40,977 nucleotides of DNA from Mariniphaga sp. (GTDB taxonomy: Bacteria; Bacteroidota; Bacteroidia; Bacteroidales; Prolixibacteraceae), in NCBI GenBank assembly GCA_024636975.1, contig JAGXGA010000049.1, forward strand, positions 1 to 40,977, read 5' to 3'. The stretch's first letter is position 1. Each line of letters starts with the position of its first letter. Of the stretch, positions 5,068 through 11,494 are shown in pieces. Below the pieces are notes generated by a model that did no database searches, was not told the DNA's origin, and was given only the letters and a program-made list of their open reading frames with translations. A program made the translations under genes and the position numbers.

Positions 5068-6387
5068 TTAATCCAATAAATTAACTAAATCAATTTTCAT
5101 TTCTTCATCAATCTCCCGGTAACGTGCAAATGCCCTGCTGCCTTCTTTGTGACCTGATAAGGCACCAACTAAATTTGGATCTTTTACTTTTTTGTATAGG
5201 TTGCCTATGAAAGTCCTCCTGGCAATATGACTGCTGGCTATTTCATTAAGTGGTTGTTTTTCTTCGTTTCCTGTGGTGGGATTAATAATTGTTACCATTC
5301 TGGTCAGTCCTGCTGCTGCAAACATTTCTTTTATTGCAAGATTGTACTTCTGTTCTAAAATAAAAGGTAAAAGATAATCATTATCAATTTTTGAATGTCG
5401 GTTGATTATTTCTTTTGCTGTGGTATTCAATGGCACACGAACAGTAACCGAGCTGCCTTTTTTCGTTTTTTTTGGTACATACTCAATTGCATTATTAATA
5501 ACACTGTTTTTCTTCATTTTAAGCAAGTCACCAACCCTGCACCCAATCACACATTGAAACACAAAAATATCCCTTTGAATTGCTAATTGTGGCCGTTCTG
5601 AAAAGTCAAAATTATAAAGATTGTTTCTTTCTTCAATGCTTATATAAAAAGGAGTTCCATAAATATCTTGAGCAATGTTGAATTTTGGTATTGAATTTAT
5701 AGAAGTATGCTTTTCATCCATCGCCCAACGTATAACCGTACGAAAATATCTAAATATTTTGTTTGTCCGATTTCGGCCTCTTTGTTTTGGTGGTCTGCTA
5801 TCAGGTACTGCAATATAAATATCAGGGTGATTTTCAAACAATGAATGTTCAATATGAATAAATAGTTCAATATCTTTCAACAGCTCTGTATCAATACTTT
5901 CAAATGTAAAAGAAAAGTTAGGAGCAGTCTTTTGTTTAAATAGTTCGTAACGCTGTAAAATTCGCTTAACTGACCTGTAATGTTGCTTCATTCGCTCTGT
6001 GCCTTTGTAGTCGGCAACAAACAAATCGTAAACGTCAAAAAATGTTTTCTGCATGTTTTCCTCAACCTGTTTGTATTTTTCAGGGCGCAAGGATTGATCA
6101 ATTTTCAAATCAAGCGTTTCGGAAGTTAATCCGGGTGATTTGTCATAAATTTTGCGAATCAGCTTTTTGCGGTCCGCAACACCATTATCAAATTCTGAAC
6201 GCTTATCCTTCGGATAAATTACTTTCGCTTTAATCACTTGATTTTTACAATCAAACATTTCTGGTTCTATTTCGATTTCCGATTTGTGGAATAACTGAAC
6301 ATTTCTACCATCGCTTAACCGGAATCGAACTTTTACTTTTTCTACCTTTTTTGCTGATGTTCTAATGAATGCTTTAACTGATGCCAT
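5068..6387 (-). CDS. Tyrosine recombinase / integrase
   Basis: A 439-aa site-specific tyrosine recombinase. The N-terminal Arm-binding-type region begins MASVKAFIRTSAKK. A SAM-like core-binding domain occupies roughly residues 110-220. The catalytic domain shows the Arg in GCRVGDLL, the Lys in the beta-hairpin PKKTKKGSS, HIARRTF (HxxR), LSGHKEG and the nucleophile Tyr in ARYREID near the C-terminus. All catalytic residues are present, so the enzyme may be active. I chose the Met at 6387 over a frame-extension start at 6447 because the extension would run through the promoter and operator repeats. It lies beside a tRNA 3' remnant, as expected for an element that uses a tRNA gene as its target. 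Confidence 0.93.
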   Translation of the reverse strand: MASVKAFIRTSAKKVEKVKVRFRLSDGRNVQLFHKSEIEIEPEMFDCKNQVIKAKVIYPKDKRSEFDNGVADRKKLIRKIYDKSPGLTSETLDLKIDQSLRPEKYKQVEENMQKTFFDVYDLFVADYKGTERMKQHYRSVKRILQRYELFKQKTAPNFSFTFESIDTELLKDIELFIHIEHSLFENHPDIYIAVPDSRPPKQRGRNRTNKIFRYFRTVIRWAMDEKHTSINSIPKFNIAQDIYGTPFYISIEERNNLYNFDFSERPQLAIQRDIFVFQCVIGCRVGDLLKMKKNSVINNAIEYVPKKTKKGSSVTVRVPLNTTAKEIINRHSKIDNDYLLPFILEQKYNLAIKEMFAAAGLTRMVTIINPTTGNEEKQPLNEIASSHIARRTFIGNLYKKVKDPNLVGALSGHKEGSRAFARYREIDEEMKIDLVNLLD

Positions 6388-6409
6388 ATTATTCAAATTA
6401 GTTAATTGG

Positions 6410-6490
6410 TTGCACAAAACCGTTGTGCAAATATACCTAGTTTGCACAACATAACCGCAATTTATTAAAATAATATGAAATATTGTGCAA
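6410..6490. repeat. TTGTGCAA repeats at the integrase promoter (arm or operator sites)
   Basis: An 8-mer TTGTGCAA/TTGCACAA occurs four times: 6410-6417, 6423-6430, 6442-6449 and 6483-6490. The middle two form a perfect 10-bp inverted repeat (6422-6431 and 6441-6450) around a 9-bp spacer, and it overlaps the -7 element of the integrase promoter. The position between integrase and attachment junction fits integrase arm sites or an operator that shuts off the integrase. Confidence 0.65.
6428..6435 (-). promoter_or_regulatory. Integrase promoter, -7 element TATATTTG
   Basis: On the minus strand TATATTTG matches the Bacteroidota -7 consensus TAnnTTTG exactly and lies 40 bp before the chosen integrase start. 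It is embedded in a TTGTGCAAA...TTTGCACAA inverted repeat, so a protein bound there would block transcription. Confidence 0.65.
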
Positions 6491-6922: not shown

Positions 6923-9001
6923 ATGAAAGTTTTTTCTTTGACATTTATATTTCTTACAATTTGTGTATTCATCAGTAGCTGCACCAAAACAGAATCTCCT
7001 GCACCTTATGGTCCGGTTCCCTCAGAGAACCAATTACGCTGGCAGGAGATGGAGTACTATGCTTTTGTTCATTTCTCGTTAAATACCTTCACCGACCAAT
7101 CGTGGGGTTTTGGCGATGAAGACATCAATCTGTTTAATCCTACTGAACTTGATTGCCGGCAGTGGGCGCGTATTTGCAAAGATGCGGGGATGAAAGGTAT
7201 AATTATTACTGCTAAGCACCATAGTGGCTTTTGTTTATGGCCATCGGATTATACTGAGTATTCGGTAAAAAATGCACCATGGAAAGATGGAAAAGGTGAT
7301 GTAGTACGTGAACTGGCCGATGCTTGTGAGGAGTACGGTTTGAAGCTGGGCATCTACGTATCTCCCTGGGACAGAAATCATCCAGATTACGGGAAACCCG
7401 GATATATTACTTATTTCCGGAACCAGATTAAAGAATTACTCTCCAACTATGGGCCAATTTTCGAAATTTGGTTTGATGGTGCGAATGGAGGTTCCGGCTA
7501 CTATGGTGGAGCCTATGAAACAAGGAACATTGATCGTACAACTTATTATGATTGGCAGCCTACCTATAAAATGATCCGTGAATTGCAACCAGATATTGTG
7601 ATATGGAACGATGGTGGCGACAGGGCTGATTTGCGCTGGGTTGGTACCGAAGCAGGTTATGTTGGTGAAACGAACTGGAGCTTACTTGATAGTGCAGGCG
7701 AAGTGACATGGGAAATGTTGCACCATGGACTCGAAACCGGCAATGCATGGGTGCCTGCAGAGGTAAATACATCCATCAGGCCTGAGTGGTTTTACCACCC
7801 AGGGGAAGATGGCAAAGTTAAAACACTTCCTCACCTTATGGATACCTGGTACAAATCGATAGGCAGAAATGGTGCTTTTTTACTCAACTTTCCGATTATG
7901 CCAAATGGGTTGATTCATCCTGGTGATGAAAAGGCTGCTCTTGACCTTGCACATGCCGTTAAAGACGTATTTTCTGTTAACCTGGCGACCAATGCAAAGG
8001 CCGATGCAAACAACATAAGAGGTAAAACCAGTAGATTCGGTGCAAACCAAGCTATCGACAACAATATGGATACCTATTGGGCAACTGATGATAGCATAAC
8101 TACTGCTTCGATGACCATCGATTTTGAAACACCAACTACATTTAACCGTTTTATGGCCCAGGAATACATCCGTTTGGGGCAGCGGGTAAATTCGTTTACA
8201 ATTGAAGCACTTGCAGGCAGTGAATGGATAGAAGTTGCAGGGGCTACCACCATCGGTTATAAACGCATACTCCGTTTCCCAACTGTGGAGGCAACCAAAC
8301 TTCGTTTTAATATTACCGGTTCAAAAGCGTGCCCGGTTATTTCGAATATCGGGGTTTACAATGCGCCGCAAATACTTATACCTCCCACCATTATAAGGAA
8401 CCAGGTTGGTGATGTAATCATTACTCCTGCAGATCGAGAATCGGAAGTTTACTTTACGGTTGATGGCAGTGAACCTGCTACCGACTCCAATAAATACTCT
8501 GGTCCCATTCAAACCGATGGGAAACTGGAAGTTAAAGCAATTGCATATGAGCCCTCTTCAGGAAAAAGCAGTACGGCTAGTCATGAAGAATTTGACCTGC
8601 CCAGGAGGAATTGGAAGATTCTGGGGATCGAAGATGATAAGGCTTATGCAATACTTGATGGCGACCCGTTTACAGCCTGGCACCAAAAAACGAAAGAGCT
8701 GCCCGTCGATTTGGTTATCGACATAGGACAAGAACTTAATATCATTGGTTTTAACTACCATCCCGATATGGGTTTATGGGGGCCTGGAATTATCACAGAT
8801 TACCAGTTTTTTATTTCAGCAGATAATAAAAAATGGAAACTGGTCAGCGAAGGTGAATTCTCCAACATTAAGAATAACCCGCTATGGCAAAACAAAATGT
8901 TCGAGAATCAAGGGGCTCGCTATATTAAGTTTCGCGCTTTAAAAAATACAGAGAACAACAGCAATATCGGATATGCTGAGATTGGTATTATCACGGATTA
9001 A
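6923..9001 (+). CDS. GH29 alpha-L-fucosidase, lipoprotein
   Basis: A 692-aa exo-glycosidase that removes alpha-L-fucose from glycans. The N-terminus is a lipoprotein signal with lipobox ISSC (Cys20), so it is anchored in a membrane, probably the outer membrane or periplasmic face. The GH29 barrel covers about residues 35-345: HFSLNTFTD at the N-terminal side, the paired His of AKHHSGF (99-100), and EIWFDGANG with the catalytic nucleophile Asp185. A discoidin-type (F5/8C, CBM32-like) domain follows at about 360-470, then a chitobiase C-terminal-like beta domain (about 490-545, VYFTVDGSEP) and a second discoidin-like domain to the end. The architecture fits host, algal or plant glycan use; linkage preference is not visible. 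The gene stands alone with its own promoter, without a SusCD pair in the window. Confidence 0.93.
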   Translation: MKVFSLTFIFLTICVFISSCTKTESPAPYGPVPSENQLRWQEMEYYAFVHFSLNTFTDQSWGFGDEDINLFNPTELDCRQWARICKDAGMKGIIITAKHHSGFCLWPSDYTEYSVKNAPWKDGKGDVVRELADACEEYGLKLGIYVSPWDRNHPDYGKPGYITYFRNQIKELLSNYGPIFEIWFDGANGGSGYYGGAYETRNIDRTTYYDWQPTYKMIRELQPDIVIWNDGGDRADLRWVGTEAGYVGETNWSLLDSAGEVTWEMLHHGLETGNAWVPAEVNTSIRPEWFYHPGEDGKVKTLPHLMDTWYKSIGRNGAFLLNFPIMPNGLIHPGDEKAALDLAHAVKDVFSVNLATNAKADANNIRGKTSRFGANQAIDNNMDTYWATDDSITTASMTIDFETPTTFNRFMAQEYIRLGQRVNSFTIEALAGSEWIEVAGATTIGYKRILRFPTVEATKLRFNITGSKACPVISNIGVYNAPQILIPPTIIRNQVGDVIITPADRESEVYFTVDGSEPATDSNKYSGPIQTDGKLEVKAIAYEPSSGKSSTASHEEFDLPRRNWKILGIEDDKAYAILDGDPFTAWHQKTKELPVDLVIDIGQELNIIGFNYHPDMGLWGPGIITDYQFFISADNKKWKLVSEGEFSNIKNNPLWQNKMFENQGARYIKFRALKNTENNSNIGYAEIGIITD

Positions 9002-9129: not shown

Positions 9130-9206
9130 GCAAAAAGAAAAAGGGCAGCTCATCAGCTGCCCTCAAATGTTAACCCCCAAACACACAAGCAATACAGAAC
9201 GTATTG
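9130..9206 (-). ncRNA. Possible third small transcript with intrinsic terminator
   Basis: On the minus strand, TAGGTTTG (9212-9219) matches TAnnTTTG. A perfect 7-bp hairpin follows (9189-9195 / 9201-9207), then a G/T-rich stretch, and a perfect 8-bp terminator stem (9143-9150 / 9155-9162) with a T-rich tail TTTTTCTTTTTG. The layout is like that of the twin units at 9702-9967 but the sequence is different. It could be just a terminator for transcripts from the right. Confidence 0.4.
9143..9162 (-). terminator. Intrinsic terminator
   Basis: GGGCAGCT pairs perfectly with AGCTGCCC around a 4-nt loop. The T-rich tail lies on the minus-strand side (complement of 9131-9142), so it stops leftward transcription, facing the 3' end of the fucosidase gene. 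The plus strand has no T-run after it. Confidence 0.75.
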
Positions 9207-9219
9207 CACTACAAACCTA

Positions 9220-9700
9220 ATTAATTATATTAAAAAGTATTCATTCCTGACATAAAAAATACAACATATCCTACTATTTAGATAGGATAAAAATAATAAG
9301 TGTCTTTTTCCAACAATTGCCAAAATAACATTCTGCTTTTAAGTCGCTAATATGCTTCGCAATAAATACACCCAATATGGATAGAGGGATCAAAACTAAA
9401 GAGATTTGGGTTGAAGGGAATACCTGTCAACGCTCATTTACATTGGTCAATATCCATAATTGCTCGATTATATAGAGATATATGACTTAAAACCGTAAGA
9501 ATGCAGCAGTCGTTTTATCAAACCTGCATAGCAACATGGTCCGATATCAATCAGCATTGAGGAGTCAAAGAATTATGATTTTGAAATTACAACAGATTGC
9601 TAAAATTTCTTCTTTCGTTTCGGGTAGAATTTTAATACGTCAGCCTATAGTTCCGGATGACAACTTACAGGTTATGGAATCAGCAGATCATATGTATAGA
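9220..9700. other. Gene-free stretch left of the twin small-RNA units
   Basis: No gene supported. There is an inverted repeat ATCCTA...TAGGAT at about 9267-9287. A 69-codon frame at 9536-9745 runs straight through the small-RNA terminator, which argues that it is not a gene, although a short piece of it is faintly like the end of a GGDEF domain. Confidence 0.5.
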
Positions 9701-9701
9701 C

Positions 9702-9787
9702 AAAAAAAAGGACGAGTCAACACTCATCCTTTTCAATCTAACTAAACCAATAAAACTAATCAAACCTAAACCTATGAACTAAAACTA
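9702..9787 (-). ncRNA. Twin small RNA, copy 1
   Basis: About 86 nt on the minus strand. Transcription would start about 6 nt after TATCTTTG (9793-9800). The first 50 nt are U/G-rich, nearly free of C and unstructured. The 3' part is an intrinsic terminator: a 12-bp stem (9722-9733 with 9706-9717), loop GUUG, then eight U. The stem contains a G-U pair when read on the minus strand but a C-A mismatch on the plus strand, which fixes the direction. No reading frame of note is inside. The function is unknown; I do not recognise a named family. Confidence 0.65.
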
Positions 9788-9792
9788 TGGTA

Positions 9793-9837
9793 CAAAGATA
9801 ATGTCGAATTTGTTTTGGTCGGTTAAGAGAATGTTAA
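9793..9837 (-). promoter_or_regulatory. Promoter of small RNA copy 1 with TTAAC boxes
   Basis: The -7 element TATCTTTG is the complement of 9793-9800. Upstream, after 21 bp, are two direct repeats of TTAAC, 11 bp apart (complements of 9822-9826 and 9833-9837), with a third at 9848-9852. An 11-bp period is typical of tandem sites for OmpR/PhoB-type response regulators and lies where a -33 element would be. Confidence 0.6.
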
Positions 9838-9869
9838 GAAATATGTTGTTAAACATTATTTAATAAAAC

Positions 9870-9954
9870 AAAAAAAGGACGAGTCAACACTCATCCTTTT
9901 CAATCTAACTAAACCAATAAAACTAATCAAACCTAAACCTATGAACTAAAACTA
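9870..9954 (-). ncRNA. Twin small RNA, copy 2
   Basis: About 85 nt, with an 80-bp core identical to copy 1 (9877-9956 versus 9710-9789). The terminator stem is 9889-9900 with 9873-9884, loop GUUG, followed by seven U. It has its own promoter, so both copies can be made independently. It lies between copy 1 and the 3' end of floA on the same strand; floA transcripts may also run into it. Confidence 0.65.
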
Positions 9955-9959
9955 TGCTG

Positions 9960-10004
9960 CAAAGATAAAGCTGATTTTGCTTAATTGCGTTAAGTGAATG
10001 TTAA
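9960..10004 (-). promoter_or_regulatory. Promoter of small RNA copy 2 with TTAAC boxes
   Basis: The -7 element TATCTTTG is the complement of 9960-9967. The TTAAC boxes (complements of 9989-9993 and 10000-10004) are again 11 bp apart and 21 bp from the -7 element. A weaker third box TTAAA sits at 10015-10019. The layout matches copy 1 base for base in spacing. Confidence 0.6.
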
Positions 10005-10040
10005 AAACTATGTTTTTAAACATCTATTAACAATTCCTTT

Positions 10041-11021
10041 TTATTCTTCCTTGTTTTTATTTTCCTCACCTGAAATGGATTCACGCATGGCAGTATCGGC
10101 CATTATGTTTTTGTATTTCATGTAATCCATTATGCCGAGGTTTCCCTTACTGAATGCTTCTGCAATGGCCAGAGGCACTTTGGCTTCTGCCTCAATAACT
10201 TTAGCCTTCATTTCCTGTGCTTTGGCCTTCATTTCCTGTTCAAGGGCAATGGCCATTGCACGGCGTTCTTCTGCTTTTGCCTGCGCAATGTTTTTATCAG
10301 CTTCTGCCTGATCCATTTGCAACCCGGCGCCTATATTTTTACCAATGTCGATATCGGCTATGTCAATCGAAAGGATCTCAAACGCAGTTCCGGCATCTAA
10401 ACCTTTTTCAAGCACAACTCTTGAGATGAAATCGGGATTTTCAAGCACAGCCTTATGCGAGTGGGAAGAACCGATTGACGAAACAATACCTTCTCCTACA
10501 CGGGCTAAAACAGTATCTTCACCTGCACCACCCACAAGTTGTTTAATACTTGCACGCACCGTTACGCGGGCTTTAGCTATGAGCTGTATACCGTCTTTTG
10601 AAACGGCAGTAACAGGTGGTGTATTGATTACCTTGGGGTTTACCGACATCTGCACTGCTTCAAATACATCACGACCGGCCAGATCAATGGCAGTTGCCAC
10701 TTTAAAGGTTAAGTCGATGTTTGCTTTTGAAGCCGACACCAATGCATGAACAACATTAGCTACATGTCCTCCGGCCAGATAATGAGCTTCAAGGTCATTG
10801 CGGTTTAAAGGCACACCGGCCTTTGTTCCTTCAATGAGGGCTCGGACAATAACTCCTGGTGGAACTTTTCTGAAGCGCATAAGGAACAGTTGCAGCAGGG
10901 AAATTTTTACTCCCGATACCAGGGCTGAAAACCACAAACCGATTGGGATGAAATATAAAAGAACAAACAACAATACGATGATACCAATAATCATCCCCCA
11001 AATTCCGATTTCTTCTAACAT
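10041..11021 (-). CDS. floA: Flotillin-like protein FloA
   Basis: A 326-aa flotillin-like membrane scaffold of the FloA (formerly UPF0365/YqfA) family, which organises functional membrane microdomains. The N-terminus has one long hydrophobic segment (about residues 8-35). A SPFH-like region ([16 protein letters not shown], then [21 protein letters not shown]) follows, and an Ala/Glu/Lys-rich coiled coil ([20 protein letters not shown]) near the C-terminus drives oligomerisation. The length is normal for the family. It follows nfeD by 2 bp, the classic FloA-NfeD pairing in which NfeD supports the scaffold. Confidence 0.95.
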
Positions 11022-11023
11022 TT

Positions 11024-11494
11024 TTATTTATTTACAGGTTCTACAATAATTTTATTCGATAATATCTTCAAAACTTTAATTTCGGTATTGTGATCGACAA
11101 AGCCTCCCGTTGATACCGCCTCCACCACTTCCCCGTTAATTTTTGCCTTTCCAGAAGGTGCCAGCCTGCCTATGGTTTTTCCTAAATCACCCACATGTAT
11201 CTTTTCGCTTATATCAGTCTCAACCTTGCTATCGATAAGTGACTCCAGGATCATTCTTTTTCCGGTTTTTGACTGGAAAAGAGAATAAATCAAAATAGGA
11301 GAGGCAATGAGAACAAAGGCAAGGGTGAGAAACCCGATTCCCGTTCCGTATTCAATAAAAGCAATATACACACTAATACCTAATAGTATAAAGCCTCCGA
11401 TACCGGCAATGGTTACTCCCGGTATTACTGCAAATTCAATTAACAGCAGCAGCAACCCCAGGCCGATAAGCAGAATGATGGCAAATACAGTCAT
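11024..11494 (-). CDS. NfeD-family membrane protein
   Basis: A 156-aa short NfeD protein: hydrophobic segments over the first 85 residues (about three or four passes), then a C-terminal OB-fold-like beta domain ([30 protein letters not shown]). It lacks the ClpP-like serine protease domain of long NfeD proteins. It overlaps clpS by 4 bp and is 2 bp from floA, so it belongs to a tight operon. The known role is partner of flotillin-like proteins in membrane microdomains. Confidence 0.92.

Follow-up and report, generated by a model that had tools for sequence, protein, structure and literature searches.

Twin copies of a conserved gene downstream of floA in Mariniphaga sp. probably encode a short regulatory RNA of a widespread family in one Bacteroidota group

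Gene anatomy of the tandem repeat

A repeat search of the analysed stretch of Mariniphaga sp. DNA (here called the window, 40,977 nucleotides in full) revealed a single direct-repeat family, consisting of two adjoining units of 167 bp at positions 9696-9862 and 9863-10029 that are 87% identical without gaps. Read on the minus strand, an imperfect palindrome comes first in each unit, and after it the TTAAC-N6-TTAAC box, a spacer of 21 bp, the element TATCTTTG and a block that ends in a terminator. The original prediction had placed two minus-strand units in a tandem 167-bp repeat here, and the search bears this out, with TATCTTTG found in both copies. The block has the same letters in both, as had been claimed, and its length is 87 bp with the T-run included rather than the 80 bp first given. 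A spacer diverged to about half with the remainder kept had also been described; our comparison of the two copies gave 52% identity for the 21-bp spacer, 94% for the box and 100% for a 41-nt core. The features are collected in Table 1, in which the 5' ends of both small-RNA (sRNA) genes are placed from the -7 element.

Table 1. Features of the repeat and genes of the window
Feature	Position	Strand	Basis
Distal small-RNA gene	9703..9789	-	Inferred transcript of ~87 nt; covariance model R1 at 9703-9792, 101.5 bits (model includes this copy)
Proximal small-RNA gene	9870..9956	-	Inferred transcript of ~87 nt; covariance model R1 at 9870-9959, 102.5 bits (model includes this copy)
Terminator, distal copy	9705..9734	-	Intrinsic; terminator search and covarying stem in 39 homologues
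Terminator, proximal copy	9872..9901	-	Intrinsic; terminator search and covarying stem in 39 homologues
-7 element TATCTTTG, distal copy	9793..9800	-	Motif search
-7 element TATCTTTG, proximal copy	9960..9967	-	Motif search
TTAAC-N6-TTAAC direct-repeat box, distal copy	9822..9837	-	Pattern search; 21 nt before the -7 element
TTAAC-N6-TTAAC direct-repeat box, proximal copy	9989..10004	-	Pattern search; same placing as in family copies
Imperfect palindrome TGTTTAACAACA, about -55, distal copy	9844..9855	-	Read from the sequence
Imperfect palindrome TGTTTAAAAACA, about -55, proximal copy	10011..10022	-	Read from the sequence
floA, flotillin-like protein	10041..11021	-	NCBIfam FloA, 531.7 bits (cut-off 393); directly upstream of the repeat
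nfeD-like gene	11024..11494	-	Pfam NfeD, 40.3 bits (cut-off 29.1); upstream of floA
GH29-type alpha-L-fucosidase with F5/8 type C domains	6923-9001	+	Domain search
Tyrosine-recombinase-type integrase	5068-6447	-	Pfam Phage_integrase and SAM-like domain

Four terminator-like sites were found between 9000 and 10100, against 0.6 expected in shuffled sequence, and two of them are the repeat's own stems. The stem carries one pair that is U-G on the minus strand and C-A on the plus strand, in agreement with the earlier reading of a G-U pair on the minus strand only. The other two sites are hairpins on the minus strand at 9141-9207, GGGCAGCTGATGAGCTGCCC with a T-rich tail and GCAATACGTTCTGTATTGC. Lying between the fucosidase gene and the repeat, they may belong to a further small RNA or close an undetected unit. 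(PDB 3eyp is presumably of B. thetaiotaomicron origin.) A riboswitch or leader was ruled out, since the terminators are followed by no minus-strand gene and the next gene, the fucosidase, lies on the plus strand.

The 5' part of the RNA had been described as unstructured. In the RNAalifold consensus of 39 sequences it is indeed open and the terminator stem alone pairs, but the minimum-energy fold of the single sequence forms a helix between the two halves of this part. As for the promoter, TANNTTTG taken alone occurs 59 times in the AT-rich window against 54 expected, which is not significant; the weight of the promoter case lies in the combination of elements and its conservation.

Spread and conservation of the family

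With one copy as the query, BLASTN at E ≤ 0.1 matched 124 of the 140 genomes from the same bacterial family, distributed over 22 of 23 genera and with copies often in tandem; at E ≤ 1e-5, the number was 91 of 140 (counted from the table, with one genome at the edge). Copy numbers from this survey are lower bounds, the best six candidates per genome having been scored, and the genome G074 has at least six copies within 2 kb. Twenty genomes from 16 genera, chosen for having matched in the survey, were searched again for diverse copies. At the level of the class, a search with strict filters and the best 10 candidates per genome found at least 9 of 396.

A covariance search with the block in relatives had been suggested as a check, and a model (covariance model R1) was built on 39 copies. 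The block recurs as a multicopy family. In the organism's own genome, the model identified a third member at C35:23747-23833 (E 3e-8), giving three matches at E ≤ 1e-7; the genome thus shows the presence of many paralogues that is also typical of FopS, a Bacteroides sRNA treated below. Five more matches are doubtful (E 0.018 to 0.076), and TTCATA is absent from four of these five on inspection, two of the four being cut by the stretch. Each of the four named Prolixibacteraceae/Mariniphaga genomes had four or five matches at E ≤ 1e-7, and seven other Bacteroidota genomes gave no match below E 0.4. Judged by these matches, the home of this multicopy sRNA family is probably the Prolixibacteraceae, to which Mariniphaga belongs; we call this probable rather than certain because the copies read in the named genomes are of a shorter class. 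This shorter class, which includes the third copy of the own genome, lies downstream of a TonB-like gene (named by eye, with no Pfam match) in 7 of the 15 loci that hold its motif. A distant look-alike, in which TTCATAGTTGTAGTTTTAGTTTTATAGTTTTAGCATGGTTTAG is followed by a GAGGAACAA terminator, occurs in five genomes of one genus (L094-L097 and L099; genus g53, family f26). Spread by phages or plasmids was considered and rejected: four phage records gave alignments of 31-36 nt (E 0.1-0.5), and plasmids gave no match.

The 41-nt core, TTCATARGTTTAGGTTTGATTAGTTTTATTGGTTTAGTTAG, is unchanged in 89 of 104 copies, has A replaced by G at one site (R) in 14 and is otherwise changed in a single copy. 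These copies come from 30 loci, one locus per genome, and the count describes the near part of the family because the loci were picked by similarity to the window copy. In more distant genera, the core varies at purines, gains UUUAGUUAG units or, in L065 and L070, is interrupted midway by an extra hairpin while otherwise conserved; the position of this hairpin suggests two separable modules. Among 63 boxed copies, mean pairwise identity was 0.43 for the spacer, 0.84 for the box (raised, as the copies were picked for having a box) and 0.994 for the core (a value that the search pattern inflates).

The terminator stem is paired in 97.2% of cells in 39 homologues and in 38-71% when the partner is slid; 50 cells are doubly changed, against 14.9 in shuffles. 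G-U cells number 46 and A-C cells 4, and from this excess the minus strand is taken as the RNA strand. A hidden peptide was ruled out, since in 31 of 109 copies the length of the linker between core and stem breaks the shared reading frame.

That selection or gene conversion keeps the block uniform had been proposed. With a core nearly invariant over 104 copies, comparison points to selection as what accounts for the uniformity of the core. The two window copies have identical tails, which are 3-5 changes away from the tails of congeners; the two window promoters are 72% identical to each other and 67-77% identical to the promoters of congeners. It is plausible from these comparisons that local gene conversion keeps the window tails alike, and such conversion would not be general because the two tails in G003 differ (by 2). 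Comparison between genomes establishes the gene anatomy, the strand, the conservation, the covarying stem, the fixed spacing of the box and the floA neighbourhood, and on these comparative grounds the conserved sRNA family is real and well supported.

Promoter and TTAAC box

The motif TAnnTT(T/C)G lies 12-15 nt before the core in 103 of 104 copies, and we take TAnnTTTG to be the -7 element of the Bacteroidetes primary sigma factor. Exactly 21 nt before this element, TTAAC-N6-TTAAC is present in 83 of the 103 copies (54 perfect, 29 with one mismatch); the other 20, with two or more mismatches, were counted as lacking the box. Pattern matching gave a second set of 121 copies, of which 69 had a slightly relaxed box; in 68 of these it stood at exactly 21 nt. 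The commonest place of the imperfect palindrome is -55 (59 of 109 copies). Five loci (L016, L017, L024, L030 and L036) have a floA-adjacent copy without the box, in which a palindrome, TGTTTTTCAGCA, abuts the -7 element as judged by eye. The Bacteroidetes primary-sigma promoter is described in words in the consulted part of one study (PMC7366714).

Searching four genomes for the box, spacer and -7 element as one pattern yielded 14 matches, against 3 in the reversed control, and all 14 were spaced by 21-23 nt although 16-30 was permitted. Five matches are sRNA copies and nine lie elsewhere. Eight of these nine form, by eye, four orthologous pairs between G040 and G071: two pairs lie between a histidine-kinase gene (Pfam HisKA, L048 and L050) and an apparent signal-peptide gene, one adjoins a flavodoxin gene, and the last, which also has a counterpart in G001, is flanked by genes for an M49 peptidase and a receptor. 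A strict search of the own genome for this pattern returned the two sRNA genes only, so that a wider box regulon is seen in the relatives alone.

Response regulators of the OmpR type bind direct repeats one helical turn apart at a fixed distance from the core promoter. The TTAAC box consists of direct repeats with an 11-bp period, occupies the -33 position and has this spacing, and from its sequence and placement it is probably a site for such a regulator. Because the box stands in place of a -33 element, the putative OmpR-type regulator probably switches the gene on. A reading as a Pho box found no backing: no pst genes were seen near the other box sites in loci of 3 kb (by eye, with Pfam for eight proteins), and none of the papers listed, judged by title, dealt with a Pho box of this form in Bacteroidota. 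RprY was rejected as regulator of the box, the motif terms being absent from the text of the one RprY paper that was checked.

Relatives, targets and possible function

Rfam at its own cut-offs found only a tRNA in the whole window, and the repeat reached no family cut-off, in line with the earlier statement that no named RNA family was recognised. A permissive scan of 9690-10040 up to E 10 gave ten matches far below the cut-offs, with FopS not among them. The best, MicX (E 0.0095; 21.6 bits against a cut-off of 75), spans both copies and was taken as chance. Literature searches and Rfam 15 yielded no description of this sRNA family.

The closest known relative is FopS (Rfam RF04319, gathering score 56 bits), a multicopy sRNA of Bacteroides. 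The consulted parts of the FopS study (PMC11697453) describe a family of 14 members in Bacteroides thetaiotaomicron, highly conserved within the Bacteroidaceae, with a single-stranded 5' part followed by a terminator and two size clusters of ~65 and ~70 nt. There, FopS is bound by the RRM protein RbpB and represses SusC-type transporters, RbpB counteracts this repression, and for the control of FopS the paper speaks of an unknown transcriptional regulator (PMC11697453). Our RNA shares with FopS the multicopy state, a U-rich single-stranded 5' part before an intrinsic terminator, TAnnTTTG before the gene, the start motif TTCATAAG, an RRM protein in the genome and a weak recovery by covariance model R1. 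TTCATARG and a TTTAG-rich stretch are likewise common to it and to FopS, and it may carry a seed of the R1/R1' kind. In contrast to FopS, it is longer (~87 nt, against the two clusters given in PMC11697453) with an extra core, TTAGTTTTATTGGTTTAGTTAG, forms tandem arrays after floA and has the TTAAC box: compared with the sigma-ABfr promoter of FopS, the -7 element TATCTTTG is present and the -33 position is taken by the box.

RF04319 exceeded its cut-off in none of 41 genomes of the same bacterial family (best score 41.7 bits, in G114), and the RNA was therefore not filed as a FopS member. Sub-threshold FopS-like matches of up to 41.7 bits do occur in this bacterial family (L224-L233; G107:C1:2455428-2457278), with at least five within 2 kb in G107. 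Such matches mean little, because in 14 control genomes five matched at E ≤ 10 (one over the cut-off), namely Bacteroides ihuae and four outside the Bacteroidota. In the opposite direction, covariance model R1 gave 16 weak matches at E ≤ 10 in four Bacteroides genomes (E 0.27-8.7). Rfam places FopS at the match in five of these 16 loci and BTnc231 in one; model E-values at the FopS loci are 4-8.7, and their starts share with our RNA TTTTTTCATARG or a close form and the UUUAG-rich stretch that follows. At L214, L215, L217 and L220, also in Bacteroides, the model matched a repeated element made of GATTTTTTCATAGTTAAGGTTTAGGTTAAAAAAATT and a GGGGAGCTGTGAAGCTGCCC hairpin that belongs to no Rfam family at gathering.

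GibS of B. thetaiotaomicron, likened by description only, also has an unstructured 5' seed aimed at start-codon regions. According to the consulted parts of two papers, its seed R1 is common to FopS (PMC7366714, PMC11697453), and it is set apart from our RNA, again by description, by the promoter PM2 and a second seed, R2 (PMC7366714). BTnc231 (RF04180) starts with CGTTTTTTTCATAGAGATTTAGATTTAAGGTTAG, read in L211, which resembles the start of this RNA, but its model has 154 positions. The family seems to be a sister to the FopS/GibS group of Bacteroides, and by analogy the RNA, which looks like FopS, may also work like it.

The 5' part had been expected to be a base-pairing region, an expectation that our target tests did not sustain. 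Exact antisense of this part with at most one mismatch occurred at 10 sites in the whole genome, two of which are the sRNA genes, compared with 14 in the reversed control. Complements of 7-mers of the twin RNA at gene starts (620 genes from 0.82 Mb of the own genome) numbered 340, against 419.5 in shuffles, with 789 of 1000 shuffles at least as high; for the short class and for FopS, 76 and 37 of 1000 shuffles were as high. Conserved pairing at starts in 173 ortholog pairs with G040 was found 14 times, against 15.2 in shuffles. In another start test the twin RNA outdid 12 shuffles by 1.5 SD, which we counted as nothing. With antisense sites, 7-mers and ortholog pairing all negative, a general antisense action on start codons is unsupported.

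SusC-like genes stood out to some degree. For the duplex energies at 12 SusC-like starts, shuffles were as good in 5 of 100 cases for the long class, 1 of 100 for the short class and 2 of 100 for FopS. Six further TonB-type receptors showed no preference (31, 33 and 82 of 100, respectively), and the 18 receptors combined gave 5, 1 and 5 of 100. The excess of SusC over other genes was matched, for the long class, by 5 of 40 shuffles and, in a second test, by 8 of 60. We regard SusC pairing as a hint worth testing.

The own genome encodes exactly one RRM protein, of 111 amino acids with a Gly-rich tail. Taking these observations together with the comparisons, we infer transcription, a regulator, an RRM partner, targets and a sign of regulation, and the product of the two nearly identical genes is probably a small regulator RNA whose family is widespread in one Bacteroidota group and resembles RNAs known from gut bacteria to govern the uptake of nutrients. 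In our preferred reading, to which as a whole we assign a probability of about 0.6, they are paralogous sRNA genes of ~87 nt under two-component control, whose trans-acting, RRM-bound product lowers the translation of a few mRNAs. Each gene would begin at the Bacteroidota -7 element and be turned on by an OmpR-type response regulator at the TTAAC box. The RNA would consist of the nearly invariant U/G-rich 5' part with UUCAUARGUUU and the intrinsic terminator, and the single RRM protein, as an RbpB-like partner, would hold the 5' part. This part would act in trans by pairing near the start codons of a limited set of mRNAs, with outer-membrane SusC-type transporters as the best candidate targets, and pairing would lower their translation; several gene copies would raise the RNA dose. 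Besides the negative target tests and the RF04319 scores, it counts against this reading that the invariant stretch of 41 nt exceeds the need of a pairing seed and that 20 of 103 copies are without the box.

The same 41 nt, kept in full rather than as a short seed, would suit a protein decoy, in which the U/G-rich core binds the RRM protein or another RNA-binding protein, arrays titrate it and pairing is secondary, much as CsrB-type RNAs titrate CsrA. The addition of copies in tandem and the lack of a general pairing signal in the antisense, 7-mer and ortholog tests point the same way. UUAG is slightly over-represented in the RNA (5 against 3.0 in shuffles), but this enrichment is weak, 145 of 2000 shuffles being as high. 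The consulted parts of the FopS study cut both ways, as RbpB binds FopS and counteracts repression, but FopS itself pairs in the tested case (PMC11697453). We consider a decoy the most serious competitor, though a rather unlikely one.

Next to the preferred trans-acting RNA, an action on the neighbour is improbable. Here the RNA, whether processed from the nfeD-floA operon or made independently, would be a 3' element of that operon and would adjust floA expression or mRNA stability. In 29 of the 30 genomes behind L008-L037, floA precedes the copies on their strand, and in all 53 overlapping loci with floA a core follows in the same orientation, 98-436 nt after the estimated floA end. The proximal terminator could end floA transcription, and perhaps it does also stop floA read-through. 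However, floA was within the 1.5-kb flanks of only 5 of the 20 re-searched genomes (nine genera in all when both sets are taken together), the -7 element kept in 103 of 104 copies would be needless for a cis element, and arrays reach the size seen in G074. Finally, an untranscribed mobile or structural DNA repeat, which would fit the tandem copies and the scatter of members among several contigs of G107, G109 and G115, is very improbable given the compensatory stem changes with G-U cells far above A-C cells, the -7 element at a narrow distance and floA synteny in nine genera.

A wider reading, which we offer as speculation and hold to be unlikely, would see an ancient Bacteroidota sRNA superfamily starting with UUUUUCAUARG, with FopS, GibS and BTnc231 as its Bacteroides branch and the long class as a member that gave up pairing to become an amplified protein-binding RNA, tied to an envelope two-component system and the flotillin locus. 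If this were true, UUUUUCAUARG would be the mirror of a start codon in an A-rich setting. To our knowledge, only a small number of Bacteroidota sRNAs have been studied, and the phylum is without the Hfq-centred sRNA biology of enterobacteria. The near-invariant 41-nt core, together with a definable box and a fixed neighbour, gives a handle on such RNAs outside the gut Bacteroides, and the TTAAC box may point to a two-component input for FopS-type RNAs.
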